This document shows positions 29,827 to 59,150 of a stretch of DNA of 64,000 nucleotides, in pieces. The position numbers were made by a program, and so were the translations under genes. Below the pieces are notes generated by a model. The model saw only the letters and a program-made list of their open reading frames with translations, was not told the DNA's origin and did not search any database. Source of the stretch: Sphaerolaimus hirsutus. Its lineage: Eukaryota; Nematoda; Chromadorea; Monhysterida; Sphaerolaimidae. Within the stretch, counting starts at the first letter, position 1. Every line of letters starts with the position of its first letter. Location: NCBI GenBank assembly GCA_964036195.1, contig OZ038458.1:16505832-16569831 (forward strand), given 5' to 3'.

Positions 29827-30866
29827 TTTGTTAAGCAAAAACAATCTTAAAGCCAACACTTATTCGTTTACAAAACAGTGTCACGCGCCACCAATTAGCG
29901 AGATTTTTTCGTTTTTACGCACGTTGGTTCAGTCGTATTCACATGAAAATTTCTACTTCGCGTGTAACGAGATCTTCGCATGAATATGTTGTTCTCATCT
30001 CCATCCTGGTCATGCGATACGATGTGAATTGTGTTTCTTCGGGAAGATATTATGTGCATCGGGTCACATGAATAGCTATCGCTATTTTTGTGTGCATGAC
30101 AATTAACGATAACTGACAGTGGTACGAGTGGTTCTGAAATCGTGGAAGGATTTGGATACTAATGTACAGATCTTCCATAAACTTCAGAAACCAGTGCATC
30201 AGTGCATTCGTGGTAGTAAAGCGACTACAATGGTATTCAGTATTCCATCGATAAAGCAGTTCGTCACATAATATCAATAAAGCACTTAATATACCACATT
30301 ATCAGCAAACATATGTTTAAATCGTGATTTTTAATTATTGTTAACTGGTATGCTAATATTTTTCGGATGCGAAAATGTGGTTCGCTGACATTATGTGAAC
30401 TTGGCATTTTTCCAATAAAGTCTTATTTTGTATTTGGATACCATTACATATTCTACGAACGAGAGTAAAAGACACAAGATTACTGTCCGAGTCACTGAGT
30501 ATGTCCGCAAAAAATGATAAAGCTACTGGGTATGGTCGCTAATGGCCGCCGACACACTGGCATGCAGCGTCCGTTCCCCATCGTCGACGGCAGTATACAA
30601 ACGGGATATCCATACGGGCTTTTGGACAGGTGCCAAGTTCACATAATGTCGGGATTCGGTAAAATTTCAATGGCCGATTTCGGGTGTATCGGTTTTGGTC
30701 ATGCTTCCAATGATTTGATGAATCTAACCACTCGGAAGTGCTGAGCTCGCACTGCCAACCCATCTGGTACGTGAGTATGCTATATTTTGCTGCTTAATAT
30801 GTTCGCTATCTGCTGCACTTCATGCCTGGCAATGTGCCAATCTTTTTACAATTTCATTTTCAGGAC
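29827..30866. promoter_or_regulatory. Divergent intergenic region, tetraspanin and zinc-finger copy A
   Basis: The two start codons face away from each other across about 1 kb (about 0.7 kb if the upstream Met at 30501 is used for copy A). No repeat termini were seen, so both core promoters probably lie here. At 30501-30529 there is a possible short first coding exon, MSAKNDKATG, ending in a GTATGG donor. Confidence 0.5.
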
Positions 30867-33800
30867 ATGTCGACGAAAATTGGCGGAATTACGACTAGAT
30901 CGGCGTCAAAACGCTCACGTACTCATGATTTTTCCTCGGTTGGTATGGTTAAATCTGATTTTTAACTTTTTTTTGGAAATCTTCCATGCAGGTTGATCTA
31001 TGTGCGTCGGCGGGTGCCGAGGACCGTGTCTTGTCCCAGTCACCGTCACGGGATTTTCTCATGAACAGGCGGTCCTTAGTGGGTCATCTTCTGTAATTTT
31101 TACACATTTTCCTTAGCTGAAAAGTGATAAATCGGCTTGCTTTCGGCGAATCGATACACTTTCTGCGCAACACTCAGCCACAACACTCGGCCACTCAGCA
31201 CAACGATTCCCGTCCAATTTTAATTGCCGTGATTTTGAACCCATTTTACTCTCTGATGAAGCCGTTCTCAACTTAATCTCAGCTTCAACGCAGGCTCGCC
31301 TGTTGCTGGCAGCGCGCAAGCTTGCCCCCGGAAAATCGGCACAGACATCAATCTCCCGGCGCCACTGCGCAACTTTGGCACTCAAATGCATGCGACAGCG
31401 GCGCACAATCAGTAATTTGGCTGGCCGCCTTCGTGTCATGCAGAATAACAACGCTAGTCTTAAGAAGGTGGTGGATGGCTGGAAGTTAAAGTTTGAGCAA
31501 GAGAAAGTGAAGAATATTGAGAAAGCAACGAAAATTCGAGCGCCCGCTCAATGGAAGGTGAATTCAGAAGGTACATAAGAATATATGAAGGCAAAATTGC
31601 GTTTGTATACCAGCATTGTGTTGTTAGCCAGAAATTTTCTCTGGGCACGTTACTGCCAAGGTAGGAACAATGAACATGGCAATGGCTATACTTTCGGTCT
31701 GTATCATTGAGTATAGCCATATTTTTGCTGAATACACCCACTCTGGCTTATTTCGATTAACGATATTTTAGATCGACTTTTATATTTTTTGAAAAATTTC
31801 TATTTGTATTTATTTCCTAGTTTTGGCGAATTTAATTTTACCACAAACGAGACACATTTAAAGCCACTCACTCTTTGCACATGAAATCCAATATAAATAA
31901 ACCCAGGTTAACGAAGCGTTGGTCGCTCGTCTAGGCCGCTTGTACGAGTCACTGCGCCAGGCAGCCAGCGGCGGCGTGATGACCAGTGGGCGATTTGTTG
32001 TCGCCTACCCGCCCTTGGCTCAAGTCCAACGCGATGCGGAACGCCGTGTTTACTCGTATGGTGAATACCGACAGAGGCTTGTTAAGAAAATGCGCGGGTC
32101 GGAGGTACAGCGGCCTAAATTAGAGAAGGACAGTTGTGCGGCGCCCCGTCCACCTGTTTATTCCAATACTCAGAGCAGCGAAAACAATGGAGTTTGTGGG
32201 GTGGGTCAGTGTTCTGGTATGTTAAAATATTTTGTTTTTAGCTCCTGTAGGATAAATAATCAGCTAAAGCATAAACAACATCTACTTTAGCACAAAAATT
32301 TGATAAAATTGTTGAAAAGATAAAGAAAAGTTGAGAAAAGAAGACATCAAACATGGAGTGTATTATGTTTGCGTAAAGATGTTCTAGATGTTTTCCAAGC
32401 ATGTTTTAAATTTTTTGACAGGGTTCTCCAATAGGGGTTTTCCTAACAGCCAATGTTTAATACTTGTTTTTTTGTCAACGATTATGTTGTAGTTAAATTC
32501 GCCGACCTTCATTTTACAGTTGGCACGCGGTTGTGCTGAACATCAAATTTTATCGTGGTTTTCCACGAGCACCACCGACATTTTTCAGTACCATATTTTA
32601 GGCACCAGAAATGTTCTTTTTTGTATGTAGGGTTGGAAAAAAATCACTTTTTTTAAACGCCTTGATTAAAAAATATATACATTATTTTTATGTCGACTTA
32701 TTACATATATCGCCTTTTGTCGGACGTTCGTGACTTCGAGTGAAGTTCAGCATGGAATAGTGCTTAAATAATGTTGTAATAGAAGGCTAATACATTGACA
32801 GTGATGTTTCACACTGTAGAAGTAAATATGTGGGAGCACATTGGCTGCATATTATATACTAGGCTAGCATAGCACGGCTTATAATTACACGGTAACATGA
32901 ATAAATGGAAGCTTTTACACTAAAAATGCCCCAAAACCCATGAAAACACCACCAATGGTAATGTGTATGAGAAACTGCGCAAAAAATTGCAAAATACCTA
33001 GTGCAAGTCTACCAGAAATTTTGCCTTTTGATAAAAAAAAAATTAAAATCAGTTTACCCCCTTTGATTTTTTATTAAAAAAATCAGATTAAAAAAACAAT
33101 CAGTTAAAAAGTCAAGTACCAACCCTTTTTGTATGCAGACTAAAGATACTGCGAATCCTCTCCTTTGAAATCTATTTCCAATGCTGACATTCTCTATTCT
33201 TTTTCAGCAGAAATGTTACCCGACGACGACACTGAAATTATAGATGTGGATGAACCAGTCGAGGTGTCGCAGCCTCAATTTTCTGGCGCGCTGTCTGAAC
33301 AGATCAGGGTACCTGAAACTGAAAATGATGGCACTTTGAACTATGAGCGTGAAAATGGTGGATTATTTTTGGCCGTTTGGGAAAGTAGTGGCACAACCCA
33401 CCTTTTTGGCAAAATTAATTCAATTTGGTATTAGCGGAACCAGGCTGATATGTGGCTTGCCAGATTTCCAGTAGCTGTCAATTTCGAAGTTTATTCAAAT
33501 TTATCTCTTGCTTCCGTTAGATCAATTTATTGGAGGACTTGCGCTTTTTAACAAAGTGTTCAAAACAAAAAAGGCCTTCGAAAATCTTTGGTGCCATTAC
33601 TTCCCTAACGGGTTTAGTATTTCAGTTTTTGAATTCGTCACAAAATTTGCACCAATTCGCCATTTTCGACAGGTTACATAAGATGCAAACTATGCAAACA
33701 AAACAAGTTGTTTCGCAAAGAGTTTGCGTATGAATATCATGTGCGGTATCGCTGTACGCGCGATAGAAGTGAGTTTTTTCTAGCGGGTCAACTTTCGTTT

Positions 33801-36800
33801 TCCGTGTTTCGTTTCCATTTTACAAAAGCATGTGAAGATTTTGTTATTTATCGTTTTCCGTTTTCCGGCAGCTGAAATTTTTTACCCTTTCCGTTTTCCG
33901 TAAGGTATTTGACACCCTTTTTTGCGAGATTCTAAGTTTAGAGTATTTATTGCGTGTTCAGGTGACGTGCGGTGCCAACGGTGCAACCGAATATTCAAAT
34001 CGCAAGTCAGTTTAGTGCGGCATGCGTCAACGTGCAACATCACCAAATGTGAGTTACTGTATGCAGTTGCCCCTGCGCAAATTAGTTGACCACCGGTTTG
34101 AAGCATCGTTTTTAGCTTCAGTAAAAACCTTTTGGCGTACTAAGAAAAGATTCGTTTCCGTGAAGTAAAACATTTCAAACAGACTTTTCGGTGGACCGTT
34201 GGCCATACCAACACTAATTTTCTACGGAAATTTTGAAAAGTTAGGAAAACTTTTGAAGTTGCGGTAGAAAACTAGTGTGAAAAGTGTGTAGCTCTTCAAT
34301 TCTTGATGTCAACTAATTTGCTCATCCACAATTCCTCATTCTTTTAGCAAGGATTGAAGATTTGAAAATTGCATGTTTTCTCATTCAGCTGACATGCAAT
34401 GTGAGTACTGTAAATGCTGGTTTCGAGATTTGCGCAATCATCATTGCCCTGAACTGAGAAAAAAGGGCCACCACAAGCCAGGTATGTGATTGAACTTGAA
34501 AGCAGGGTAGCTTAAAACATTTTGGCTCCTGTCCTGGATATTCTCTCAGCTCCAGTGTTTTATTTTTCATTTTTTTGCAATATTCGTGTATACGGCACCC
34601 CAGTTTTTAACACTGATTCATGGGCCGGCAAATAATATACTAGACCTGATTAGAAATAATTATAATTATTATGATTGAAGAAATAATTATTAATATACTA
34701 GACCTGCCAAATTAGAACAGTATACCCGATCCAAAAACTTCCCAACCTGGTAGAAGTAAATAATGTAGGCTATGCTTGCAACAACTGTGGAGCGATCTTG
34801 TCAACGCTGGGATCTCTGAGACGCCACAAGGAGGGCATTGATAGGAAACAGCCGTGCTCTGCTGATTCTCAACACTGTGAGTCTGGGTGTACATTAACGA
34901 CTGCTAAAATATAACAAAGAACACATTTCGCTCGCTCGGCGATTCGGCGGCCCAAACACACTAGATGACATGTGTGTCATCTGATCTGTGTCAACTCAGA
35001 TTTCTTCTTCACGCTTGTCAGAGCGATCTTCCAATGGACTTGCCGCACGTGCATTCGGAGATCGCTTTGCGTCACGTGAAGCTGAAATTTGAGTTGACAC
35101 AGACCAGTTGACACACATGTGTGAATCAGTGCGCGGGCATAGGGGATTTTCGGGGTAGCATTTTAGGGGGGGGGGGGGTCCGCCAAAGTTTGCATGGTTA
35201 TAACTTTGCAACCACTTGGCGAAATTTGTCGAAAATTTAAAATAATGATGTTTCAGGTCGGGCGGTATTGAAAATCAAATTCGAATTTCTACGACCCCCC
35301 TGACCCGAGATAGGGTGGGTCTGAAAAAAAGCACATTTTTCGATTTTTTCGGGTGTCGCCTTGAACACGCAAAATTTGAATGTCAATAACTCCGTTATTT
35401 CACGGCCGATTTTGATCATTGAACTTCTAAAAAATTTTTTTTGGAGATCCCATTTTTGAGGTCATTTTGGTGATGTACAATTGCGGTAATATCGATTTGA
35501 TCCTATTTCTGAATTCTGAATGCCAAATTTTGAGCAATTTTGTTTATTTGAACATGTTATCATATACTTTAGACAACGAGAACTCATATAAAACAAAAAT
35601 GAGTTCAATATCTCTTTCCAATCAAAAGTTATAGCGCATCAAACTTTCCCTCCCATCCACATAAATAACTGCAGGATGAAGAACAAAGCATGCAATTTCA
35701 AAACTCCATATCTCGCCCATTTCTCAGCCGATTTTCACCAACGAACACTTAAAATGATCAGAATAACATGGGGATATCGTTTTTATTATCAGTTTATTTG
35801 TATAAATGTTCATTATGATAATTTCATTCAAGAGTTATCATTGTTTTCTTGTACTGGAGAACTTATACAATACACAGATAATCTGGGAATAAAAATGATA
35901 TCTCCATGTCATTCTGATCATTTTAAGTGTTCGTTGGTGAAAATCGGCTGAGAAATGGTCGAGATATGGAGTTTTGAAGTTGCATGCTTTGTTCTTCATG
36001 CAGTTATTTATGTGGACGGGAGGGAAAGTTTGATGCGCTATAACTTTTCATTGGAAAGAGATATTGAACTCATTTTTGTTTTATATGAGTTGTCGTCGTG
36101 TAAAGTATATGATAGCATGTTCAAACATAAAAATTTGCTCAAAATTTGGCACTCAGAAATTGGGTCAAATCGATATGACCGCAATTGTACATCACCAAAA
36201 TGACCTCAAAAATGGAATCTCCAAATGTTTTTTCTTCATTTTAGAAGTTAAATGAACAAAATCGGCCGTGAAATAACGGAGTTACTGCCATTCAAAGTTT
36301 GCGTGTTCAAGGCGACACCCGAGAAAAAAAATGTGCCTTTTTTCAGACCCACCCTATCTCGGGTCAGGGGGGTCGTAGAAAGTCGAATTCGATTTTCAAT
36401 ACCGCCCCGACCTGAAACATCATTATGTTAAATTTTCGACATCTTTCGCCTAGTGGTTGCTGAGTTATAACCATGCAAACTTTGGCGGACCCCCCCCCCT
36501 AAAATGCTGCCCCAAAAACCCCCTATGTGCGCGGGTCGCCTTTGCTGGTCTACCCCCTCCAATTTGGGGGCCCCTGCTGTAACCGTTTGTCGCTTTTTCC
36601 GTAGCCTCCCTGCGCTGCCCTTTGTGCGTCGACGGGCCCGAGCGTTTCGTCGGCGGCCAGGAGGGATTCGTGCAGCATCTGAACGCTGCGCACGGCTACG
36701 GTGCCGTCGTGAAGCGCGACACGTTCGCGTCAAAGTTGCTCTTTGACAACTGGCTGCTGGCGCTGGAGAAGGGCACCAGTCAGCGTTTCGTTATCAATAC

Positions 36801-39555
36801 TAGCTACACGCGCAAGCCGGATCATTTGGTGGCTGTCAGGAGATTGGTGTGCGTGTTTGGTTTGAGAATTGTAATCTGTTTGGGGAGTCTTGTTGATTTT
36901 GACCCCTGCGAGGGTTGAGTAGATAGTAAATCGATTCTCATAGATACGGATCGATAGCTTAATTATTTTCTGTTGGGGGTTTGCGTGGGTTCAATAATAG
37001 GCTTTTTCAAGGTGTACAAGACGTCGGAAATTTTCAGGGGGACATTGGGAAGAGGGGGTAACCCTTAGACGCCCCATCTGTTTGTAATTCGGTTGATCAA
37101 TTTCGCGTCGAATTGCAGACATCGATGCTATTACTGGCGTCGACACGATGATGCAATTGGCACGGCTGTGGAATATGTGCCAGATTTTGGTTTGATCTGT
37201 CCCGCATTCGTTGTGGCTGTGATTAGCAAGGCTGATGGGTAAGACATTCGATTTGAAAATGTCACTGGAAAAAGCTTTTTACGAATGCACTCTATTTTCT
37301 CAAATTATAGCTGTAAATTCGAAAATATAAATAGCGAACGTCCAAAGTCTAAAGTATAAAGTCAAAATAATTTATGAAATCGGTCGAAAATCAATCCAGT
37401 GCTGGAGTGATGTCACGAAATTGAAAATTGAACACTTTGTAGAGTGAACCAAATTTGTGAAGGAAACATTTTACACACCCTTTTGCCAGCCCTTTAACGT
37501 ATTAAACAGTTCACACAATACGCTCAAAATTTGTTCAATATTGCTGGTTGATCAATGAAAGGTATTTGTAAGTTGACAAATCCTGAAAAAATTTCTTCCC
37601 TCAATTTTTCCACACACCTCGCAGATCGGTTCAGGTAGTCTATTGTACCGATCATTGTGGACACGATCGGTACGATTTGAGCAAATATGCCAGACACCTT
37701 GCCGATAACGTGTTTGATTTTATGGCCGATTACCTGGACCGGCACCCCGATGCCAGTAATCAAGATATAATCGACGCCGTTCGCGGTGAGAAATTGAGAA
37801 ACATTTTTAGAAAGGTGGTGCAACGTTGAAAAAAACACGATTCACACTGGCGATAAATCAACGCTGCAGGTGCTAAATCGGAACTTGGCGATGTTGTAAT
37901 GGAATACTCAGACCAGAAATTTAACAATTGCATCCGCAAAAGTTTGCGCAATCCTGACAGCAACATGCATGCGCAGCGAAAACTTCGAGCCGCGAAGCGC
38001 TTGGTGATCTCATTTAATCTAGCTGGCTGCGTTTAATACAAATTTGGTATTTACTTCTACCCCAACCCAATCAAACACAGAAACAGGACTCCGCTGTATG
38101 TGCGATTGTGGAAGAAGCCACCACCAAATCGCCGTTGGCTGTTGCAGCCCCGCGCCAGTTCAGTTCACCTTTGAGGAACACTCGTCGCACTGCCAAATTT
38201 CAGCAGACAAAACTCGTGTGCCCACCCGGTTTTGCTGCTTACGCGCCTAGGCACATGTTAGATGTTGTTTTACCTTCACTGGGGCTGCCGCCAGAAACTG
38301 AAACTGTCAATGCTATCCCATGGCTCCACTGCCCAGGGGTCTCCAATGGGGAGGGGTGGTTACCCCCCACCAAATCTGCCAGCTATTTATCTATTAACCC
38401 CCTCCCCGTCTCAGCAATTTTTTGTCTATGCCAGACAGGGGCATGCCTAATACGCACATCTGCCCGTTACGCACATTTGCCCGTTTTTTCAATTGACACT
38501 TTTTCAAGTGATTTTCAGATATGAGTCAAGTGAAAAAAGTTGCGCAATGACATTAGTGAACTTTTTTCACCTCACTCATATCTGAAAATCACTTGAAAAA
38601 GTGTCAAGTGAAAAACGGTCAAAAATAGCCCTTTTTCACCGTTTTTTCACTTGACAATTTTTCAAGTGATGTTCAAATATGAGTGAAGTGAAAAAAGTTC
38701 ACTCATGTCATTGCGCAATTTTTTTTCATTTCACTCATATCTGAAAATCACTTGAAAAAGTGTCATGTGAAAAAAACGGGCAAATGTGCGTATAACAGGC
38801 AGATGTGCGTATTAGTGCAACCTCTGCCAGACATCGTTCAGCTATCTATGAATTTGGAGGCAGTTTTGTGTTTTACTTTTTTTGCCCATGTGGAAAACCC
38901 TTTTTTTATTTTAATTGTCAATTCTAAAAATCAAGCAGTTTAAAATTGAAATTTTTTCCAACGCTGCGTAGCGATATTCAAATTAAACTCATGATCTGAC
39001 CAATTCAGGCGCGTGATTCGGCAACTTTCGGCGCGACGCGGCGAATGCGCCGATCCGACGCCGTTGGCGCTCGAGCTGAACACCGCGCCCGGCGCATTTC
39101 TTCGCATGACCGCGCAGCCGATGAGCCACGCGCAGCTGGAACGGCCGGGACACGGCGACTTCAGCTCCTACGGGTGCTACGCGTGCGGGCGGCACGCGGT
39201 GCGGCTGCACAAGTACACGGGGCGGGTGTTCTACAGCGCCGTCAACTGGCAGCGGGACAAGTGCACCAGGGCGCTGGGCGGCGTCCACCCCAGCTACTCG
39301 CTGCAGCAGCTCGCCTGGCTCGAGCTGGAGCTGGCCGCCAGACGCGCGCTCGCCCACAGCGCGCACATGCAGCCCCAAGTCGCCGCCGCCCACGCAAGAC
39401 AGCTCGCTGAGCAAACTGTTGTTTCTGTGGCTAAACACCTGGCGCTCGGTGATGCAGACATAGTGACACTTAAGACACAGTGGGCGAGGCTGTCTGATGA
39501 TGTGTTTGACGAATGGCGTCGGGACGAATTGAGACCAAATATTTCACTCAAGTAG
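30867..39555 (+). CDS. Multi-finger zinc protein with FAR1-like domain, copy A
   Basis: Unnamed protein of about 905 residues, presumably nuclear and DNA-binding. Proposed exons: 30867-30938, 30992-31082, 31283-31557, 31907-32216, 33208-33357, 33673-33768, 33962-34048, 34389-34481, 34721-34876, 36605-36854, 37119-37238, 37625-37785, 37870-38003, 38081-38256, 39009-39555. Domains in order: basic, helical N-terminus; four CCHC fingers at about 302-440, each in its own exon; a C2H2 finger at about 445-475; a block with CYYW...CPAF...CTDHCGH (about 528-580), the C/CPA/H-x-x-H spacing of FAR1/WRKY-GCM1-like domains found in Mutator-type transposases and their domesticated relatives; a helical region; then a last exon with C-x-x-C-x-x-H. 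No transposase core is visible. The tandem paralogue at 41320-50884 confirms most splice sites. The first two exons are uncertain: MSAKNDKATG at 30501 is an alternative start that also stays in frame. Confidence 0.82.
32628..33127. mobile_element. hAT-like element in copy A intron
   Basis: Starts TAGGGTTGGAAAAAAA and ends CCAACCCTT, flanked by the 8-bp direct repeat TTTGTATG. Interior (GTTCGTGACTTC, CACTGTAGAAGTA, CTAAAAATGCC) is shared with 44851-45504. No transposase. Lies 80 bp upstream of the exon beginning at 33208. Confidence 0.82.
33673..34876 (+). CDS. Copy A, four single-exon CCHC fingers
   Basis: Four consecutive phase-1 exons, each with one Cys/His unit: 33673-33768 (C-x2-C-x14-H-x4-C, GYIRCKLCKQ), 33962-34048 (C-x2-C-x12-H-x3-C, RCQRCNRIFK), 34389-34481 (C-x2-C-x9-H-x-C, MQCEYCKCWF) and 34721-34876 (C-x2-C-x12-H-x9-C, YACNNCGAIL). 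Copy B has the same spacings in each, which is strong evidence that they are functional zinc sites. The one-exon-one-finger phase-1 layout would allow exon shuffling. Confidence 0.88.
33790..33905 (+). repeat. TTCCGTTTTCCGGCAGCTG repeat, second cluster
   Basis: Three or four units of the same motif as 17640-17790 (CGTTTTCCGTTTTCCGGCAG), in the intron between the first two CCHC-finger exons of copy A. Confidence 0.6.
34949..35137. mobile_element. ACTAGTTGACA-type MITE, interrupted at its right end
   Basis: CCCAAACACACTAGATGACA pairs with the GTTGACACAGACCAGTTGACAC arm. The right terminus is cut by the foldback element at 35138-36527; the displaced end continues at 36528 with TGCGCGGG. Confidence 0.72.
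35138..36527. mobile_element. 1.4-kb foldback element with 8-bp target duplication
   Basis: Two arms of roughly 650-690 bp (CATAGGGGATTTTCGG and its complement ending CCCCCTATG) around a short central loop near 35790-35890. Flanked on both sides by TGCGCGGG. The arms have diverged only slightly. No coding capacity recognised. It lies in the copy A intron before the C2H2 exon. Confidence 0.88.
36605..37785 (+). CDS. Copy A, C2H2 finger and FAR1-like domain exons
   Basis: Exon 36605-36854 has RCPLC...VQHLNAAH (C-x2-C...H-x4-H), then FDNWLLALEK and an RFV.N strand. Exon 37119-37238 has HRCYYWRR and CPAFVVAVI. Exon 37625-37785 has VVYCTDHCGH and the helix NVFDFMADYL. Order and spacing match the F..W......F.......YYC...CPA.......H.H pattern of animal FAR1/MULE N-terminal domains. 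Assignment is by pattern, not by alignment score. Confidence 0.7.
38333..38446. mobile_element. Fragment of a CAGGGGTCTC element
   Basis: CCAGGGGTCTCCAATGGGG and a TAT-rich run match the left part of 28248-28919 and 47675-48162. It is broken by the palindrome that follows; CAGCTATCTATGAATTTGG resumes near 38838. Confidence 0.55.
38447..38815. repeat. Large GATACGCAC-related palindrome
   Basis: Ends CTAATACGCACATCTGCC and GGCAGATGTGCGTATTAG. The interior alternates CAAGTGATTTTCAGATATGAGT and its complement four times, forming nested hairpins. A longer relative of 317-447. It lies in the last intron of copy A. Confidence 0.75.
39009..39555 (+). CDS. Copy A last exon
   Basis: Encodes about 182 residues ending PNISLK-stop. 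Contains GCYACGRHAVRLHKYTGRVF and a long Ala/Leu-rich helix. 39169-39410 is almost identical to 50471-50712 in copy B, whereas the flanking coding sequence on both sides is diverged. Domain unknown; the C-x2-C-x2-H and a later Cys may bind zinc. Confidence 0.88.
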
Positions 39556-41319
39556 TTTGATGTGTGTTGCCTGTTGACTATTCTACATGCTTGTATTTCT
39601 TTGAATGAAAATATTGAAACCTGATTGATGTTTTCATCCCAATGAATTCCAACCCGCGGGGTCGTTAATGGTGCCGAACTGAGAAAACGTAAAGGGAAGT
39701 ATTTTTCTCAACGCGGGAAAACATGAAATGAATGTAATGTATTTACTTGCTACCAGGAAAACGTAAACTGGGTATTTAAAAAATTCTACTGAAATATTTA
39801 GTAATCTTTATTTTTTTTAAATAAAAGAATGTTCCTCAACAATCAGCCAAGGACAGGGTTGGTTTTATAAAAATTCATTTTAGTAAAATTGTATAAAAAT
39901 TGTATAAAATTTTTATTTTATTTTAATTTTATTCTTGTTTCATTTTATTTTATTTTATTTTATTCCGAAAAGTCATTAATAAAATAAAATGACACATTTT
40001 ACAAAAATTTTACAAAAATTGTACAAAAATTTTACAAAAAATCAGAAACAGGCATGCAAGGCCAGAAAAATGTTATAATTAGACCTATACATGAAAAACC
40101 TGTGACAAATTTTTCCCTTTCTTTTCAAAAGTTGCATGCAGCTATATTGTTAGCTAGCTGCAAGTGTAAAGTTACAATTATTGATAAGAATGGTTTGCAT
40201 TTTCAGTAGAAGGACTACTGGAGTGTGCTTGGCACATTTGTAAAATGTCATGCAAAGTGTCAATTGTCATGACAAATGTAAAGTAAAGTATCAATTGTCA
40301 TGCAAAATGTCAAGTGTCATGTAAAATTTCAAGCACAGTGGCAATTGTCATGACAAATGTCATGCAAAGTGTAAATTGTGTATCGAAATCTTGTGTTATT
40401 GTATCCAAATGTTCACATAAGATTTGGAGTCAACAACAACATAATTTGGATACAAAACATAAGATTTTGAAATAAAACATGAGATTTGAACACAATTTGC
40501 TTGACAATTGATACTTTAATTTTTACATGTCATGACAATTTACACGTTACTTTACATTTGTCATGACAATTGACACTTTGCATGACATTTGACATGACAT
40601 TTGACACTTTACAATGCTTGGGACTGCCCCCAGATCCATGAAAAAACAGGTAGAGACTCAAGCAATGAGACAAAATTTTACAAAAAATATGAATTTTTAT
40701 ACAATTTTACAAAAATACGAATTTTTATACAATTTTACAAAAATTTTACAAAAATTCGAATTTTTATACAATTTTTATTTTTATTCTTAAATTTTCCATT
40801 TTATTTTATTTTATTTTATTCTTGAATATTCCATTTTATTTTTATTTTATTTTTATTTTTTTCTGAGATTTTGCCAACCCTGGCCAAGGAACGTTTTTCA
40901 GTACGTCTACCAAATGTTCAATCAATCCAAGTTTCCAAAATATAAAGTGAATCAGCATTAAAAGTATCTTTTATGTACTCGGATACTTTGAAACATTCTA
41001 TTTACGTAAAAGCGAGTAAGGTACTTTTTGGGAGAAAACGTAAACGTATTCGGTACTTGAGCATTTGTATGTTTCAACTTAAATGAATACGTTTTCACAA
41101 CTGTGCCATCCTGTACTGGAGATGTCTCCCAGAGGACTGAAATAGTCCGCTCTATTTTCTCAGTGTTGATAAGGCTTGCTCTTTGATTTACGTTGAACGT
41201 TTCTATTTCCGTGCAGTTGTGCTGTTCGTGATCTCGTCTTATCGGAATTTGTACAAATTTTCGATTTTACTCTGCACCGCGAGTGATTATGTACACGGAA
41301 TAATCCGGGAACCCTGACA
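39556..41319. other. Intergenic region between the two zinc-finger paralogues
   Basis: About 1.76 kb, of which 1.03 kb is the element at 39854-40882. The remaining 39556-39845 and 40891-41319 are AT-rich and presumably hold the copy A 3' end and the copy B promoter. Confidence 0.6.
39854..40882. mobile_element. hAT-like MITE with perfect target duplication
   Basis: Termini CAGGGTTGG and CCAACCCTG flanked by identical GCCAAGGA. The outer arms are low-complexity TTTTATTTTATT. The middle (about 40210-40630) is itself a palindrome of TGTCATGCAAAGTGTCAATTG units, apparently a second element inserted into the first. Confidence 0.88.
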
Positions 41320-44300
41320 ATGGCAGCAGTCAAAGTTGAAGCAGAGGACCGGGATATTCACAATCGAGACCGAACATCTCGATGTTGCGGAAATTCCGGG
41401 GTTGGCATTGTCAACTTGGCACACCGCATTCTCAATTTCATGTCCGCCACACTGCATTCACCTTAGATCGAGTGCGATGTCGATCCGATGGCCAGCGGCG
41501 GGGAGGACTGCGACGCGCCCGTGCTGACTACGTGCAGTAGGTGGCAGTCCCGCACCCTGTAAAGTGGCATGTGTAGTATCAAATGTAATTTAAGTTTCAA
41601 TTGAAGCATAAAAAATAAGACTTGAGGACCCGTTGTGACAGATTTCAGACTAAGAACTTTGACATGCGACTTTGCACTTGCAACTTTGACAACTTTGCAT
41701 TGCACTTGACAAATTTGTGTGACATTTTGCATGACACTTCACAGGGTGCGCGACTGCCCCCAGGCGTTCATTGGTCTGTTGTGTTGACTGCGACTGTTTT
41801 GGATACATGCATGGATGTCCAAGTTGTTGTATCATGCACAGGCTCGCATTCTACTGGCGGCGCGTCGCCGCCGCAGCGCATCCATGCAGCTTCTATACGA
41901 CCGGTGCGTCCTGTTATCCCAGCTGTGCGCGCGTCGCGGCCGCCAGATAGCCCTACTGCGCGAGCGGCTGATTAGTGAGCGACAACGGAGGCGCACTTGG
42001 CGCGGTTCCAAGCAACGACGCAAACTCACAATGCAACTGGCCAACCTGTACCAGGAGGTGCTCACTTGGAGGGGGAAATATGAGGCGGAGAGAAAGAGCT
42101 CTGCTCAGCATAGGGTTGGTTCTGGGGAGGGTGTGATACAGGTGTTGCCAACGAGGCGGTGGTTGTTGGGGGTGCGGGTTAACCCCCCCCCCCCCCAACT
42201 GTCGAGCAGCGTCCTATGTGGAACTAATTCTTGGCAATTTTAACCGAATTTTCACAGCATTTTCACAGCACAGAGTTTTTGTACCCTTTTGAACATTTTA
42301 GGTTTCAAAGTCATTAAATTGTTATACGGTACTGCTTATTTTTTTCCTATATATTCTTTTCTATATTTACCTATGTTTGGTTAAATCTGCATTTGTATAC
42401 CTATTTTTAACTATTTTTCTCCTATATTGGGTTCAGCGATTTTTCACTCTTGTCGTTTTGCCGCATCGTGCCTTTTTCCGCGCAGGTAAATGAGGTGCTG
42501 CTGTCGCGTCTGTGCCCCCTGTACGACTCTCTACGAGCGGCGGCGGTCACCGCCAACTTGGGCCACGGCAGTTCGTTCACGCTCAACTGGAAGCCGCTCG
42601 GCGTGCTGCGGCGGCAGTCGGAACAGCGGGTTTATTCGTTCGGCGAATATCGCAAGCAGATCAAGCGCGGCGGCGAGCTGACGCACAAACGGCGCAAAGT
42701 TGCTAGACGGCTGCCGGGGAAAGTCGAGGTTGACAGTGATGTTCAAAATGACGCGGAAAAACACGGTCGGTGACAAAATAGCGTATTTTCTCGAAATACC
42801 CGCAGGGGGTTTATTAGTTCGCCAGCAAATTGGGGGGTAATTCAAGGGGTATACTCATACGTAGGAAAATAAAACGATCAGAGCGATGTATAAGCATCGA
42901 TATTGATGAGTAAATAGACATAAATATATAAGTACAGGGACGTATCCAGGATTTTTGAGCGGGGGGGGGGGCTGCAGCCCCGCCCCCCTGGATACGGCCC
43001 TGTATAAGTACATATAAAGACAGTATTTATAAGCCCTGCCTTAATGGAACTCAGTCATTGTTTTAACGCATGGCCTGCATTAAACAGATCACAAAATGCG
43101 GTTTTTGTTATTCACATTTTCTTAAGGCTCAATTTTGGTGTGGGTATTCAATGGGGTATGTGGGTATTTCATGGGGGGCTATAATTTCCCCAGCTCGCTC
43201 AAGCCTGGGGGTATTTCGAGGGGGTTTATTCGAGGAAATGCGGTACATTCGTCTGCTCATGATTCTTGTTCAATGTGGAGATGACGTCTTCCTTTTGTAT
43301 CAGAATCAAATACTGCTGCCGGTCGTGTGGAAAGCCCGAAGTCTAACCATGTGATCGACAGCCAAGCAGCGGGAAGCAGTGAATCTCAAAATTGTGCAGA
43401 TATACCGGATGGAGGTGTGAAAGAATATGACCGGATAAATGGTTTGTTCTGAATGATTTGCAGAATTTGTTTTACATGCTGAACTCTTTGAAAGTCGTAG
43501 ATCATCAATAACGTTCGCAGGATATATTGTGTGCAATAAATGCATAAAAGGCAAGACATTCATCAAAGCGGAGACGTATGAATTCCACTTGAAATATAGA
43601 TGTCCGATGGACAGAGGTAGTTTGCTGGGAATGCTTCCTGCTGTGACGTCACTCTATCTTTCACTTCTGTCACCCCCAACGCGCAGAGGATGGCCGCTGC
43701 GAGCGTTGCAACAAACTGTTCAAAACTCGACCCTCATTGGAAAGTCATCGAAAATCGTGCAAAATCACAGAAGGTTTGTGTTGCTTGAATTGGCAAATCC
43801 TAAAAATAATGTAAAATTTATGTTCTTGATAATCTAAAACAGCCGACGCGATGTGCGAACACTGCGAGACTCGCTTCAAAGACATGCGTTACCACGCCTG
43901 CCCTGTCCTCGCCAAGCAGGGAAAATTGGTCAAACTTGCAGGCACGTTGCATTCCTGTATTTTAATTGTATTTGTGGTGTTGACTTCAATACTTATTGTG
44001 CAGTATGGTTTATTGCAGTGATATTGTACATATTCATTGTTTTTTTTCTTGAGGCGCTCTCATCACTAGTTCTTGTTGAAAAAAAAACTAGTTAAAAAGG
44101 TGTTCAATCATGTCTACTGGCAGGCTTTCAATGCGACCGCTGTGGGCGACTGTTCCAACGCTCTTCCCACCTGCGAGCGCATAAGGAAGGCAAAAATCGC
44201 AAACAGCCATGCTCCGCGGACTCATCCAGTGGTTTGTTTTTCGAGGTTGATTTTTAGCACTGATTAACATCGCAACTCGAGTGGTTTCACTTGTAAGTAC

Positions 44301-47300
44301 TCTTGTAAGCAAATGAATGGAAAGTAACTTGAGCAACAATACCTTACAATCAATACAATACAATCTTTAATGACACTTTGCAAATGCATGAAAATTCTAA
44401 TTGACGTAAATAATTCTCTGCCCTACCTTGAATAATTTCCCATGATTTTTTTAACGCAAACATTGAAAATTGTGACCGAAATTACTCTGGATTTTCCAGG
44501 TCTCACCCAGGGAAATGGGGTATCCCCTGGGAATGGGGAATCCCCCTGGATACCTCCTTACTGTAGTAAATAGTTTTAAACCACCTTCCAGCCAACTTCC
44601 GCTGCCCGCTGTGCGCGACTGATGCAGAAGAGGGCCGAGTATGCGGACAAGAGTCTTTCGTGATGCACTTGCAAGCGAAACACGGCTACGACGTGACCAT
44701 CAGAAGAGAGTCGTTTGACGTCAAAGTCAAATTCGACAATTGGTTGTTGGCGCTGGAAAAGCAGACGTGCAGTCGTTTCGTGCTCAACTCTTGCGGCAGC
44801 AGACGCAACGAACAGCTGATTGCCGTGCAGAAATTGATGTGCGCGTTGAATAGGGTTGGAAAAAAACGTTTTTTTTTAACTCGATGTTTTTTTATTAAAC
44901 GTTTTTTTTAAAAGCTCCCAGATATGACCTTGTGTCAACATATATAGGTATATCAGACAGTGGCAATACTCTGTGATGTTATATATGACCATATAATGTC
45001 TGTGAAGCCATGGGATAGCATTATAAGTGGTGATTTGTGTCAAAAATATCCATTTTTCGTCGACATATTGTTGGTATACCGCCTTATAGTCGAATGTTCG
45101 TGACTTCAGGTAAAGTTTGGCACGGAATAGTGATCAAACCAGGTTATAAAAGGAGGTTGTTATTTTGGGAGTGAAGTTACACACTGTGGAGGTACATGGA
45201 AGCACGTTACCTCAATATTATATACTACAGCAACATATGACGGCTTATTAACCCATGGTAGCACATAGAAATGGATACTTTGATACTAAAAATGCCATAA
45301 AACCAATGAAAACAACCACGAATGTCAATTTGTGCGTGAAATTGCGAGCTTGCGCGCAAAAATTTTGCAAAATACCTAGTGCTTAGTACTAAAAATTTCG
45401 GCCCATGTTTTTTATTAAAAAAAACATTTCGGACGTCATGTTTTTTTAAAAAAACAACGTTTTTTTAAATAAAAAACGTTTAAAAAAAACATCGGCCAAC
45501 CCTAGTGTTGAATGTGGTTTCTCTTAGAGGTGCTGCATTAGTCTCCGAGAGACCGACCTTTTGGGGTTCATATGAATATCTGGGGGCAATCCCGGACCCT
45601 GTAAAGTGTAAAAAAACTGGAAAAAGTCATGTGTCATGTAATAGACCCTGTAAGATGTCATGTGACATGTAAAAAGGCCTGTAAAATGTCATGTGTCATG
45701 TAAAAGACTCTGTTAAGTGTCAAATGTCATGTTCAATCAGGGACGTATCCAGGATTTTTGAGCGGGTGGGGCTGCTTGTTTACGGGGGCCGGCGAACGGG
45801 GGGGGGGGTTCAGCCCCCCCCCCCTAAAATTTTTCCCTATATAGGGACGGAAAGGCGTTTTGGCGCTAGCGCCATACAAAGGCGCCACGCCATGGCGCTA
45901 TTGGCGTTGGCGCCAGCGCCAGGAACCGCTTTGTATGTATGTAAATATGCATACATATACAGCGAAATTTGGAAAAATCTGTTCATTTCCAAGGCAATTG
46001 GTTTTCTGGGGCCGATCCGCTGTAAATACAATGCATGGGCAAGAAATTGCGCGCTTGCGCGCAAAAATTTTTAAGAAACATCGAAAAATATATAGGAAAA
46101 GTGGCATTTTCCGGCACCTTTTAGGTCTCACCCCGGGAAGGGGGGGCTGCAGCCCCCCCCGCCCCCCCCTGGATACGTCCTTGTGTTCAATACTCTCTAA
46201 AGTGTCATGTGATTCAGATCTTATTGTATTGTGTCTAGTGATGGAATGGCGCCATGGCGCTGGCGCCATTTGAGGGCGCCAAAGGGCGCCGCGCCATGGC
46301 GCCCTTTTTCCGTGGCGCCCTTGGCGCCTGGCGCCCTGCTTTTAAAGGGCGCCAAAAAGGCGCCAGCAGGGTTTCAAGGTGAGTGCTGTATAAATGGAAA
46401 AAAGATGAAAAACGCATTCATGGATGATCTGAATTCGCCAGAAAAATGGACGAAGTGGTTTGAGTGGGTATAAATCTTTTGTGCAACGGTTCATCAGATG
46501 TGTTCATCACAGGTTGACAGATCAAAAGACGAGAATGATGGAACGTTGAACTTGCAAAATCATAAATCAACGGATTCAAATCATTGCAATTCCGTTTTTT
46601 TGTCCATTTCGAGGAAACATGATTGGAAAAGTCAATTTGAAGTGAATGGATTGTTGTCAAATGACAATATCCATTGTGTTTGAATTGTCATGTGAATTTT
46701 ACTCGAATTTTTTTGTTGCTAGTCTTGTCTTTGTTCATTACACCCTGGAGAACGCAAATTAAGTAGTGAATGCATGTACTAGGGTGCTGTAGAAACACTT
46801 TTAGCACACGCAGGGTGTTGTATTCACTTTTTTATCCTGGCGCCCTATTTTTCAAATGGCGCCCTAGGCGCTTGGCGCCCTCTTTCTGTGGCGCCCTTGG
46901 CGCTTAGCGCCCACTTTCTGAATGGCGTCATGGCGCCATTGACGCCTGGCGCCCTTTTTTCTGGCGTTTTTCCATCAGTAATTGTGTCCAAATCTTATGT
47001 TTTTGTATAGAAATCATAATTATGGACATAATATTTGGATATTGATTTGGATACGAGACAATAAGATTTGCATACGCATAACACTTTACACGGTCTTTTA
47101 CATGACAATTTACACGGTCTCTACATGACACTTTACACTATATTTCCATGACAATGTACATGGTATTATACATGACATCTGATAATTAATAGGGTCTTTT
47201 GACTGAATGCTATATTGAGCTGGATGCTATTGTGGGTTCGTCTGCGCACGAATAGGAAGACTTTAACTTGATCAAGTTGTGTGACACGTTGGCTGGCGCG

Positions 47301-50300
47301 TTTTAGGTGTCTAAATCCAATTCCCTCCCATTGGACACCCCTGATTGTGAACTGTGGTCGCAGGCACCGGTGTACTTGCTGGCGACGCGACGCAAACTTG
47401 GACGGCACGCCGGCCGAGGTGGTCCCCGGCTTCGGCATACTGTGCCCAGCATTCGTTTTTGCCGCAATCGACAAAACTACTGGGTTTGTTCTTTTTGTCT
47501 GGATTAAATTCAGAATCTGGATCGAATAGCATTACTATCCTCGAGATCGGACAAAAGCTACAAATTATTAATATGATTTTGAGCAAGGTAAAGCTTTGGA
47601 TAATTCTTCACGTCTAAATAATTTGTAATTTTATCAGTTTTGGAGACTTTATAAGGTGTGTGATAGGTTACCTCCAGGGGTCTCGAATGGGGGGGGGGTA
47701 CCCCCCCCCCCCAAACCGCCCAGCTATCTATCTATCCCGGAGGCCGCTCAGCTATCTATTTATCCCGGAGGGAAAATTTTGGGCTACTACCCCCTAAACC
47801 CCCCCCCCCAATCGCCCAGCTATGTACCTATCTGGAGCTATTTTTGAGAAAATATACCCCAATTCTCACTTAAAATCGCTATTTTTCATACCTTTTTTAT
47901 AGATTGTCACTTCCAAAATGATAGTTCTGGTTCCTATTTGCCTATTTTCAGCTATTTTTAGTACTATATGCTCTTGTATACTCATTTTTCTCCCTTTTCG
48001 TCCTTCTATGCCCCGAAAAAGCGTATATATCGAACCACCACAACCCCCCCCCCCAAACCCCCCCCCACCCCCCCCCAGAAAATTTTTCAGCTATCTATCC
48101 CTCCGGAGGAGCGATTTGCTATCTATCCAACCACTCAGAGGGTCAGATCCAAGATACCCCTGGTTACCTCTAGGGTTTCAAAGATACTGGCTTTTTGATA
48201 CCGATACTGACATAAAAATTTTCAATACCTACACAAGATTACAAAACCGAGGCTCCCGTTTTTTCAATCGTGACATCAAGTAAATATTCCCTTTTTCGAT
48301 AGATACCAACATTTTAATTTTTCGATACCGGTACAAGGTATCCGGATAACGATACCGATACCGCAAAGTATTGACATTTTGCCGATACCGATACCGCGGT
48401 ATCCATTTACACCTAGTTTCCTCCACTCATTAACTAGTATTCCGAATTGTATGTACATTATCACGTGCAGCACAGTGCAAGTTACCTACTGCACCGACCA
48501 CTTCGGCCACAAGCAGCTGGACATCGACAAGCACAGACGCTCGGCTAGAATCGATGAGAATGTGTTCGACTTCATGGCTGATTTTTTGGAAAAAATGCCC
48601 GATGCAACTGATGAACAGATTATGCAGGCTGTCCGAGGAATGTTTGCATTGTATAGTAACTAACATTGAGAAATTGATGATTTTGAGAGAATATAATTAA
48701 ATATAATTTAGAAAACCTCTCAAAAAAGAAATATAAATAATCAAATCTCTCAGGAAAACGTTGAAAGATAAGAAGAATTTTTTCTGATATTTTTAATCAT
48801 CTTGGAACATGTCTCAAAAATAAAATTAAAATAAATCTGTCTGAAAAATACTGGCAAATAAACAAATCTAAATTTTTTTATATTTTTGTGTTTTATGATA
48901 TTTCTGAATATAAATCTCCCACATATTTTTCAATGCTAATCTTTACATTCTTTAAGTATTATATATTTATGGTAGATTTTGTCGTTCAGGCGCAAAGGAC
49001 GTGCTCGGTGACATTGTGCTCGAGTACTCCGAGGCGTCATTTGCGAACACTATCAAAAAGCGTCTAAGAGACCCTGACAGCATATCTCACAGGGTTCGGA
49101 AGGAGAAGATGGCAGTAAAAAAGGTTGGGGTCCGGCTTTTATTGCAGCTTAATTGTTACGTCATATGACTACGGCCTCTTCTATTTGTGTTTGGGTGGTT
49201 TTTCTACAGGCGCTATTTATTTCTATGGTACATATATTTACATTTTTGTCACTGTATGCTTATTTAGAGAAAATTGCAACCGTACTTAACATTCTGAGGT
49301 AAAAAGTGACATGAAATATCCGATATCAGTCGACATTGTTTTAAAATCAACGTCCTTTTCGATAGAGCTCTTTTTCATATCCGGTAGGATATATCATCCA
49401 AAACAGGTTTTATTCACCCACCACATCCCGTTCACCTGGTGCTTTTGTGCTTCAGGCTCGCGAGCAGACATCGGCATTGATTCAACCTGCCGCACCGGAC
49501 GAAACGGCGGAGCAGAGCACGTCGCAGTCAAAGAAGCGCCGTGTTTCCGCCGACGCCCATTGCCCGCCTGGGTTCGCACCATACACGCCCAGTCACATGT
49601 GAGCAGTTTTTATTTTCAGTTGTCAAGAGAAACTGACCTAGTCGTGTTAACCCGCCAAACCCGCCAGTCATGTATTTCTACCCGCTAGTCATGTATAGGG
49701 GGTGTACATGAGGGCGGGGGAATTAGCGGTTGGTGTACATGAACATGGAAAGGGGGATTAGCGAGAGTGGGTTGTCATGTGACCAGCAAAGTTGTACAAA
49801 TACCATTTTTGGAAAACATAAGATTTGCATTGGCATTATTGTGTTTTTAGAACTTTTTCTGTAATATTGAACTTTAGTGTTTTTAGAACTTTTTCTGCGA
49901 CAAACCTTGAATATGATAACTTTGTCCAAAATCCTGATCTCAAAAGTTCAAAAAACCAATCTTGATGTGGATCATCTGGTTTGTATTTACATTTTTGAAA
50001 ACACCAATATTTTAACAAATCTGCTGGTCACATGACCACCCACTCTCACTAATCCCCTGCCTGCTGGTCATGTACACCCACAGCTAATCCGCCACCCACT
50101 GGTCATGTGCCCCCCCTATACATGACTGGCGGGTCTACATGATTAACGTGTTTACATGACTACATGGTCATTGCATGATATTACGTTGTTCATTCACTTT
50201 TCTCACATTGGAATAATAAATCTTGCAAACCGAAATTTCGTCAAAACTGAACCAAAAAGTGGCAACTTCAGCCTGCCTAGTCCGCATGTACAATAAGTCT

Positions 50301-50884
50301 CTTATTACAGGCGCATCATCCGGCAGCTGGCGGCGCGGCGCGGCGAGCCGGTCTTGCCCGCACCCATGGCCCTCGAATTGGGCACCGAGCCTGGAAAATT
50401 TCTGCGCATGATCGCACAGCCACCGGCGATGGCGACAGCCGCGCCCGCTGGCGATTCGGAGTACGAGATGTACGGGTGCTACGCGTGCGGGCGGCACGCG
50501 GTGCGGCTGCACAAGTACACGGGGCGGGTGTTCTACAGCGCAGTCAACTGGCAGCGGGACAAGTGCACCAGGTCGCTGGGCGGCGTCCACCCCAGCTACT
50601 CGCTGCAGCAGCTCGCCTGGCTCGAGCTGGAGCTGGCCGCCAGACGCGCGCTCGCACACAGCGCGCACATGCAGCCCCAAGTCGCCGCCGCCCACGCAAG
50701 ACAGCTCGCTGACCACACCATGCATTCGGTGGCCAACCGGCTGCAGTTGCCGCCCGCCGACATGAACGAGCTGCTGCACAGATTGCACACGCTCGCCGAT
50801 GATGAATTGCTGCAGTGGCGCGACGAGGAATACTCGCAACCGAATATAACTTTCAATAGTCCTGCCGCATTTGTGTACCCATGA
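41320..50884 (+). CDS. Multi-finger zinc protein with FAR1-like domain, copy B
   Basis: Tandem paralogue of copy A, about 895 residues. Proposed exons: 41320-41400, 41467-41536, 41824-42141, 42486-42765, 43304-43441, 43521-43616, 43687-43773, 43843-43941, 44124-44231, 44592-44844, 47364-47483, 48471-48655, 48990-49123, 49456-49598, 50311-50884. Intron phases match copy A from the third exon onward; exons of 96, 87, 120 and 134 bp have identical lengths in both. In the 134-bp exon 23 of 45 residues are identical. Fingers: GYIVCNKCIKG, RCERCNKLFK, MCEHCETRFK, FQCDRCGRLFQ, then RCPLC...H-x4-H. The FAR1-like block has HRCTCWRR, CPAFVFAAI and YCTDHFGH. Odd points: a GC donor at 43942, loss of the expected donor after 48637, and a phase mismatch between the second and third exons next to a MITE. 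It may still be functional with small adjustments, or be starting to decay. Confidence 0.8.
41543..41760. mobile_element. GGCAGTC-GCACC MITE in copy B
   Basis: Inverted ends GGCAGTCCCGCACCCTG and CAGGGTGCGCGACTGCC, with internal TGTCAAAGT-like units. It begins 6 bp after the apparent donor of the second exon (GCA|GTAGGT) and fills the whole intron up to the third exon. Related to 12152-12298. Confidence 0.72.
42780..43244. mobile_element. CGTATTTTCTCGAAATACCC element in copy B
   Basis: Ends GCGTATTTTCTCGAAATACC and GGTTTATTCGAGGAAATGCGG, interior with TTTCGAGGGGGTTTATT. Same family as 2088-2494. A tiny element at 42935-43002 is inserted in it. Confidence 0.68.
42935..43002. mobile_element. 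68-bp CAGGGACGTATCCAGG mini-element
   Basis: CAGGGACGTATCCAGG to CTGGATACGGCCCTG flanked by identical TATAAGTA. It consists of little more than the two termini and a G/C hairpin, so the termini alone seem sufficient for mobility. Confidence 0.88.
44592..44844 (+). CDS. Copy B C2H2-finger exon next to a transposon
   Basis: Encodes RCPLC...VMHLQAKHGYD and FDNWLLALEK. The donor GCGC|GTTGAA is followed after only six bases by a hAT-like element. By alignment with copy A (TGCGT|GTTTGG) this is the ancestral donor, and it lies inside the target-site duplication. Confidence 0.82.
44851..45504. mobile_element. hAT-like element at a splice donor
   Basis: TAGGGTTGGAAAAAAACG to CCAACCCTA, 654 bp, flanks GCGTTGAA and GTGTTGAA (seven of eight). 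Long T-runs and A-runs at the ends, interior shared with 32628-33127. Non-coding. Confidence 0.85.
45738..46183. mobile_element. CAGGGACGTATCC-family MITE in copy B
   Basis: 446 bp, CAGGGACGTATCCAGG to CTGGATACGTCCTTG, flanked by identical TGTTCAAT. The GGCGCCAACGCC-type core resembles 52189-52631 closely, so both moved fairly recently. Confidence 0.9.
46237..46979. mobile_element. GTGATGGAA element rich in GGCGCC
   Basis: Outer ends GTGATGGAATGGCGCC and GGCGTTTTTCCATCA. Both arms are dense in GGCGCC and GGCGCCATGGCGCC. The centre (about 46380-46800) is unrelated AT-rich DNA with an open frame (ENDGTLNLQN) faintly like a copy A exon (ENDGTLNYER). Likely a MITE with filler. Confidence 0.6.
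47675..48162. mobile_element. CAGGGGTCTCGAATGG element in copy B
   Basis: 488 bp from CAGGGGTCTCGAATGG to AAGATACCCCTG, flanked by identical GTTACCTC. Contains CAGCTATCTATCTATCC and C-runs. Relatives at 28248-28919 and 54873-55358. Confidence 0.87.
48471..48655 (+). CDS. Copy B exon with altered donor
   Basis: Encodes VTYCTDHFGH and NVFDFMADFLEKMPDA, matching copy A exon 37625-37785. In copy A the exon ends CGCG|GTGAGA; the aligned copy B sequence is CGAG|GAATGT, which lacks GT. An in-phase alternative donor, TATA|GTAACT, lies 18 bp downstream and would add six residues before a stop codon that follows immediately. Confidence 0.65.
49645..50166. mobile_element. CCCGCCAGTCATGTA palindromic element
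   Basis: Left arm GTTAACCCGCCAAACCCGCC pairs with right arm GGCGGGTCTACATGATTAAC; repeated CATGTA/TACATG units throughout. It occupies the last intron of copy B. A cousin lies at 61291-61651. Confidence 0.7.
50311..50884 (+). CDS. Copy B last exon
   Basis: About 191 codons ending FVYP-stop. Shares GCYACGRHAVRLHKYTGRVF with copy A. 50471-50712 differs from 39169-39410 at three bases only (two silent Ala codon changes, one Ala/Ser), while the 5' third and the C-terminal 50 residues differ widely. Confidence 0.88.
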
Positions 50885-59144: not shown

Positions 59145-59150
59145 CATTTG

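Follow-up and report, generated by a model that had tools for sequence, protein, structure and literature searches.

The question raised by a 64,000-nucleotide window of the Sphaerolaimus hirsutus genome (contig OZ038458.1, C14:16505832-16569831) is what kind of protein is encoded by two adjacent genes, here called A and B, in which a series of zinc fingers is followed by a conserved Cys/CPA/HxxH block, and from what source that block was acquired. An earlier, sequence-only reading had proposed a tandem pair of zinc-finger/FAR1-like proteins with an unusual domain order. We examined the window together with the genome (348,482,957 bases in 762 contigs), and our answer is that A and B appear to be two of five or more related multi-exon host genes, a family expanded within the lineage, whose products most likely act as nuclear, nucleic-acid-binding zinc-finger regulators; we would put the probability of this reading at roughly two in three.

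The tandem pair proved to be real. In all-against-all BLASTP of stop-to-stop frames, ten exons (E3, E5-E12 and E14) paired in identical order between A and B, over stretches of 31.9-39.6 kb and 42.4-50.9 kb and with E-values between 9.6e-7, for finger 2, and 1.2e-84, for the last exon, and spliced models of 14 exons each were obtained for gene A (30867-39555, 823 aa) and gene B (41320-50884, 844 aa). Two long proteins had been foreseen, and they are there, but the predicted length of about 900 residues was too high. The shared exon order, phases and lengths also held up: intron phases match in 13 of 13 cases, the aligned intron column matches in 10 of 13, and five exons are of the same length in both genes (E5, 96 bp; E6, 87 bp; E8, 108 bp; E10, 120 bp; E12, 134 bp). 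Because the exon ends were picked partly with phase agreement in view, which biases these matches, the independent weight lies with the BLASTP pairs and the further family members. Introns are GT-AG, except for B intron 7 (GC-AG). The weak points of the models are this GC donor, exons 1 and 4 (17% and 31% identity between A and B, respectively), six extra codons ending B exon 11, and the 5′ boundary of A exon 13, which is one choice among several acceptors. No other copy of A or B was found by TBLASTN within the window, and an isolated hit outside the exon order (E 0.57, in gene A on the minus strand) was taken as chance. The exons and the near-identical tract discussed below are as follows.

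30867..30938, +, gene A exon 1, beginning with ATG, weakest of the exons (spliced model; compared with B exon 1)
31294..31557, +, gene A exon 2, basic/helical N-terminal region (spliced model, A/B alignment)
31907..32132, +, gene A exon 3, conserved N-terminal region, present in C and D (BLASTP, spliced model)
33208..33357, +, gene A exon 4, acidic linker (spliced model)
33673..33768, +, gene A exon 5, CCHC finger 1 (BLASTP, spliced model, signature)
33962..34048, +, gene A exon 6, CCHC finger 2 (BLASTP, spliced model, A-E alignment)
34389..34481, +, gene A exon 7, CCHC finger 3 (BLASTP, spliced model, signature)
34769..34876, +, gene A exon 8, CCHC finger 4 (BLASTP, spliced model, A-E alignment)
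36605..36848, +, gene A exon 9, C2H2 finger plus the initial part of the Cys/CPA/HxxH block (BLASTP, spliced model)
37119..37238, +, gene A exon 10, first Cys of the block and CPA (BLASTP, spliced model)
37625..37785, +, gene A exon 11, H-x-x-H and the segment after it (BLASTP, spliced model)
37870..38003, +, gene A exon 12 (BLASTP, spliced model)
38087..38257, +, gene A exon 13, CPPGF motif, 5′ end picked from several acceptors (spliced model)
39009..39555, +, gene A exon 14, C-terminal Cys/His domain, stop included (BLASTP, spliced model)
41320..41400, +, gene B exon 1, weakest exon (spliced model)
41842..42114, +, gene B exon 2 (spliced model, A/B comparison)
42486..42735, +, gene B exon 3 (BLASTP, spliced model)
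43304..43441, +, gene B exon 4, linker (spliced model)
43521..43616, +, gene B exon 5, CCHC finger 1 (BLASTP, spliced model, signature)
43687..43773, +, gene B exon 6, CCHC finger 2 (BLASTP, spliced model, A-E alignment)
43843..43941, +, gene B exon 7, CCHC finger 3, GC donor (BLASTP, spliced model, signature)
44124..44231, +, gene B exon 8, CCHC finger 4 (BLASTP, spliced model, A-E alignment)
44592..44838, +, gene B exon 9, C2H2 finger plus the initial part of the block (BLASTP, spliced model)
47364..47483, +, gene B exon 10, first Cys and CPA (BLASTP, spliced model)
48471..48655, +, gene B exon 11, H-x-x-H, with six additional terminal codons (BLASTP, spliced model)
48990..49123, +, gene B exon 12 (BLASTP, spliced model)
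49456..49598, +, gene B exon 13, CPPGF motif (spliced model)
50311..50884, +, gene B exon 14, C-terminal domain, stop included (BLASTP, spliced model)
39169..39410, +, putative gene-conversion tract, gene A copy, partner 50471-50712 (3 mismatches in 242 bp)
50471..50712, +, putative gene-conversion tract, gene B copy, partner 39169-39410 (A/B comparison)

Differences between A and B are distributed 280/226/400 over the three codon positions (614 codons, E1-E13), and in E5-E12 pN (nonsynonymous) is 0.344 versus a saturated pS (synonymous) of 0.804. This pattern fits conserved coding sequence, and A and B are, as judged from these alignments, old duplicates under constraint at the protein level. 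Part of the last exon stands apart: the tract listed above has a pS of 0.02 (61 codons), versus 0.57 in the other 120 aligned exon-14 codons. BLASTN extends it to 248 bp at 98% identity and places it at two sites only in the window; it spans the central Cys/His part of the C-terminal domain. In otherwise old paralogues, recent gene conversion would be the natural reading of such a near-identical tract, an assembly error being less likely.

A genome search with protein B, cut to 838 residues by dropping the doubtful end of exon 11 (six codons), yielded 53 places at E<=1. Three co-linear runs emerged, all on the minus strand of C14, a contig of chromosome size, and about 9 Mb from A and B, namely gene C (~25.595-25.604 Mb), gene D (~25.363-25.373 Mb) and gene E (~25.348-25.354 Mb); these are the three co-linear homologues found, and all are in the source genome. 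Their models start past exons 1 and 2, and spliced alignment recovered the fingers, the block and the C-terminal domain in each of them; C and D clearly have the exon-3 region, which in E is represented by a weak TBLASTN match (E 0.39) outside the model. Common to A-E are four CCHC fingers, one C2H2 finger, the Cys...CPA...H-x-x-H block, a CP-x-GF motif and a Cys/His C-terminal domain. The order claimed for the pair is therefore kept in three further genes and is, on the present models, a trait of the family. The A-E alignment contains 112 invariant columns, including Cys/His positions in the fingers, in the block and in the C-terminal domain; the last Cys of finger 3 is out of register in this alignment, yet its signature is present in 5/5 members, as are those of finger 1, the C2H2 finger, the block and the C-terminal motif, and all four ligands of fingers 2 and 4, judged from the alignment, are invariant. 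In a FastTree phylogeny of the same alignment D pairs with E, and C joins D+E (supports 1.000 and 0.993).

One additional locus, F, consists of a single exon-14-like frame (C15:12194762-12195061), with no other match at E<1 in the 18 kb examined. It lies ~41 kb from the one Mutator-like element (MULE) match over cut-off found in the genome (C15:12236230-12236487), which may be a coincidence.

In A and B the CCHC fingers, one exon each, were confirmed to have four different spacings: C-x2-C-x14-H-x4-C, C-x2-C-x12-H-x3-C, C-x2-C-x9-H-x1-C and C-x2-C-x12-H-x9-C for fingers 1 to 4. They are followed by the single C2H2 finger, which has the spacing H-x4-H. The Pfam model zf-met scores over cut-off in B (24.4 bits on the finger segment, cut-off 21.2) and not in A, and zf-C2H2 and other finger profiles match below cut-off only; with this profile match and conserved ligands, C2H2-type fingers can be recognised. 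The C-terminal domain and the block gave no usable match in Pfam, NCBIfam or PDB, and Rfam at gathering scores gave nothing; matches to DUF7613 (E 0.029), Ves (E 0.13), a guanylate-binding protein (E 0.38) and a cholinesterase (E 0.21) were taken as chance. In comparison with other C2H2/CCHC multi-finger proteins (zf-met, CEP104_ZnF), A-E share tandem C-x2-C...H...C/H fingers and differ in that the CPA block and one more Cys/His domain come after five conserved fingers. The statement that no described family has the full order agrees with our literature search, in which none was recognised, coverage of subscription journals being thin.

Given seven conserved Cys/His sites, a nuclear, nucleic-acid-binding role of the A-E proteins is most likely, as is zinc binding. 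The fingers and the Cys/CPA/HxxH block would hold zinc and bind DNA or RNA, with the C-terminal domain making protein contacts; the family probably grew by tandem and dispersed duplication and is probably preserved by selection, A and B presumably still swapping sequence over the C-terminal domain by gene conversion.

The origin of the block is harder to trace. Its consensus, F...(D/E)NWLL..E....R(F/Y)..N...RC..WR...G...CPA.V.A....G.V.V.YC.DH.GH, has the order Cys, CPA, ~23 residues, H-x-x-H, these ligands being invariant in 5/5 members. FAR1/FHY3 (FRS, PF03101) proteins are regulators of transposase origin, FLYWCH (PF04500) is a zinc domain of the same proposed superfamily, and the WRKY-GCM1 superfamily is characterized by a four-stranded sheet with a C-C-H-H/C zinc site. 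The FAR1/FHY3 ligand order Cys...C-x-A...H-x(n)-H is present in all five members, with H-x-x-H replacing H-x-H, and the spacing from the second motif to the histidines is 23 residues in the block and ~24 in FHY3. The sequence-only reading had gone further, assigning the block to FAR1/WRKY-GCM1 and deriving it from the N-terminus of a Mutator-type transposase, and neither step could be established. For 5 of the 5 members Pfam returned 0 families on the block at E<=10, FAR1 included; a PDB search with the block recovered no WRKY, GCM1, FAR1 or FLYWCH chain; and FLYWCH had no Pfam match in A, B or the block. In hhalign comparisons, the block profile scored 13.07 against the FLYWCH domains of the genome (ten of 14 places, L072, L074, L077 and L078 being left out), with 10/40 shuffles at >=13.11 and a top shuffle of 17.05, so that it is at shuffle level, and its spacing differs from that of FLYWCH. 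Against the FAR1 domain of FHY3, which matched Pfam FAR1 at E 5.8e-26, the profile scored 11.8 (200 shuffles, mean 11.9, maximum 19.73), while the FLYWCH set was detectably similar to FHY3 in the same set-up (22.8, E 0.0019), which served as a positive control.

These results bear on two accounts of the block, each of which we hold only tentatively. According to the first, A-E contain a domesticated MULE, in which the C2H2 finger and the block are the DNA-binding front of an ex-Mutator transposase of the FAR1/WRKY-GCM1 type, which lost its DDE core and was then joined to host fingers. Besides the invariant ligand order, it is favored by member E, the only one that aligns to FHY3 in the CPA register, with 14 of 500 shuffles as good, and by an animal FAR1-like consensus that the block profile matches strongly (hhalign 41.0, E 1.8e-6; 200 shuffles <=20.18). 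The latter match may be circular, because this consensus is an unverified one, written by hand after the window had been seen; it weakly matches Pfam FAR1 itself (E 0.064), and no natural sequence resembling it was found in the source genome (best E 0.297) or IMG/VR. MULEs carrying C2H2 fingers or FAR1 are described in PMC6446971, and domesticated FHY3 and FLYWCH genes of animals are reported in PMC10027918; in the latter, transposase-derived DNA-binding parts are likewise reused in host genes without one-to-one homologues, but those genes show recognisable FHY3/FLYWCH parts, which are not detectable in the A-E block. The lack of Pfam families for the block in 5/5 members, the lack of a FAR1 place over cut-off in the genome and the shuffle-level scores with real FAR1/FLYWCH material count against domestication, as do the single members: as many as 372, 473 and 226 of 500 shuffles did as well as D, A and B, respectively, against FHY3 (15 for C). 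A and B further differ from FAR1/FHY3 proteins in lacking a significant profile match and a recognised DDE core or SWIM finger, and in having additional CCHC/C2H2 fingers and a C-terminal domain.

As had been stated, no DDE core follows the block: none was found in the three plus-strand frames of 30850-40201 (gene A, E<=1) or in spliced A and B. A genome-wide MULE search gave four places at E<=0.01, none on C14 and none at A-E, the only one over cut-off being on another contig, near locus F. FAR1 scored over cut-off at 0 places in the source genome and FLYWCH matched at 14, these genome-wide FAR1, FLYWCH and MULE counts being lower bounds; eight FAR1 matches were rejected as below cut-off, at least six of which (L008, L009, L012-L015) lie, by eye, in one repeat-like frame. 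Nine of the FLYWCH matches are clustered in 37 kb (C15:12474792-12511747).

According to the second account, A-E are host-born finger proteins, the block being an unrelated zinc domain that came to look FAR1-like by convergence, without transposon ancestry. The negative profile tests, the lack of a DDE core in the regions just named and the multi-exon structure common to the members all fit it; the coincidence of order and spacing with FHY3 (C-x-A, ~10, DG, ~10, H-x(1-2)-H) does not, nor does the strong match of the one hand-written consensus. A link of the block to the superfamily is no more than possible, and so is MULE ancestry.

Three observations weigh against a nucleic-acid-binding regulator. 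No relative was found outside the source genome in IMG/VR scans and one GTDB scan; the AlphaFold2 model of exon 14 of A and B was poor (mean pLDDT, the predicted local distance difference test, 45.8); and such CCHC fingers are also capable of protein binding, CEP104_ZnF matching the B finger segment (E 2.2e-5, 25.1 bits) just under its cut-off of 27.4. Protein binding would thus be the main rival to the nucleic-acid-binding role, in the form that the fingers, as a CEP104-like CCHC array or zf-met, contact proteins or structural RNA and that the proteins are not transcription factors. This we consider unlikely, at perhaps the level of a minority view: the zf-met score of B supports it together with the CEP104_ZnF match, but the latter is below cut-off, zf-met is a broad model, and a C2H2 finger and CPA block are not known to be part of the CEP104 architecture. 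That A and B are joined unrelated frames or decayed transposon copies, for which the weakly supported exons 1 and 4 speak, is highly improbable in view of matching phases, protein-level constraint and the same order in C, D and E. An active transposon was likewise rejected, the genes being multi-exon and conserved and the transposase core not found.

The C-terminal exon of the regulator family also appears to record the birth of introns. In A and B exon 14 runs without a break. In C, D and E it is broken up, each time at another point, by the following elements.

C14:25595348-25595539, palindromic element in C (L045), 192 bp, putative exon 14 intron
C14:25363510-25363700, palindromic element in D (L047), 191 bp, putative exon 14 intron
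C14:25349325-25349519, palindromic element in E (L049), 195 bp, putative exon 14 intron

Aligned in pairs, the elements agree at 167/191, 167/192 and 161/191 bases. They fold as near-complete hairpins (-151, -126 and -137 kcal/mol for C, D and E), and each starts with GTG(C/T)CAGTC and ends with CAG. The ends in D were set by the spliced aligner alone; those of the C and E introns were moved by hand to the GT/CAG of the element from aligner ends a few codons away (C, GC donor, 171 bp; E, 192 bp). Joining the flanks across the elements keeps frame and length in all three genes, giving (junction marked by a slash) ELEL/GARHSL in C versus ELELAARRAL in A and B, HPV-R/VHK in D versus HAVRLHK, and SLAS/SRDSDRLLHYG in E versus SLVSGEHDDRLLHFG in F. 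Since C, D and E each have one further modelled exon-14 intron (301, 417 and 1366 bp) without such inverted repeats, the elements do not explain every intron in this exon.

Introners are short nonautonomous elements with inverted repeats, reported in two animal groups only according to PMC9860276. Here three similar elements fill putative introns at three non-homologous sites, the corresponding sites being empty in relatives; like introners, they would have made an intron wherever they inserted, in C, D and E and probably also at L081 (see below). The differences from those described there are a near-perfect, full-length palindrome and an animal genome, with splicing predicted here from sequence. 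Short hairpin transposons appear to have been turned into new introns, an introner-type intron gain.

Copies elsewhere were counted by exact patterns. The 22-base end of the element has 2,158 exact copies in the genome (reversed control, 0), 677 of them with GTGC in front, and CAG precedes 334/677. Three CAG-preceded copies were read: in L081 (element of 168 bp, GTGCCAG...CCCCCAG) the apparent coding flanks, once joined, read open on either side in 2/3 frames, and the element seems to have done likewise in at least this one other gene; L080 and L082 are without evident coding flanks, which is why the preference for CAG is at least partly a target preference and not proof of splicing. A copy at L074, near C15:12474792, interrupts a FLYWCH-coding frame; its 3′ end differs, and it was not counted as an intron. 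Diverged element ends (3-4 mismatches) also occur in the window at 41545, 45587 and 59802, the first two within gene B introns. We think it quite probable that a palindromic miniature inverted-repeat transposable element (GT...CAG) split exon 14 three times and inserted in L081 as well, which would combine an intron-birth record, an introner family and a new zinc-finger class in one reading.

Beside the A/B pair, on the minus strand, are a multi-exon gene that we take to be of the POU homeobox type (13450-16155, POU3-like by eye from its frames) and one presumed to be tetraspanin-like, with a CCG motif (27023-29573, by eye). A direct repeat of ~0.6 kb (3922-4533 and 58512-59155) has 92-100% protein identity in most, not all, paired frames.

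The genes A-E would encode a class of zinc-finger proteins with a new domain order. These five conserved genes share several putative zinc sites and a 140-residue block that cannot be assigned, and so offer a clean target for studying the origin of DNA-binding modules. With three element-filled introns and the empty sites in sister genes, intron gain may become directly testable in an animal.

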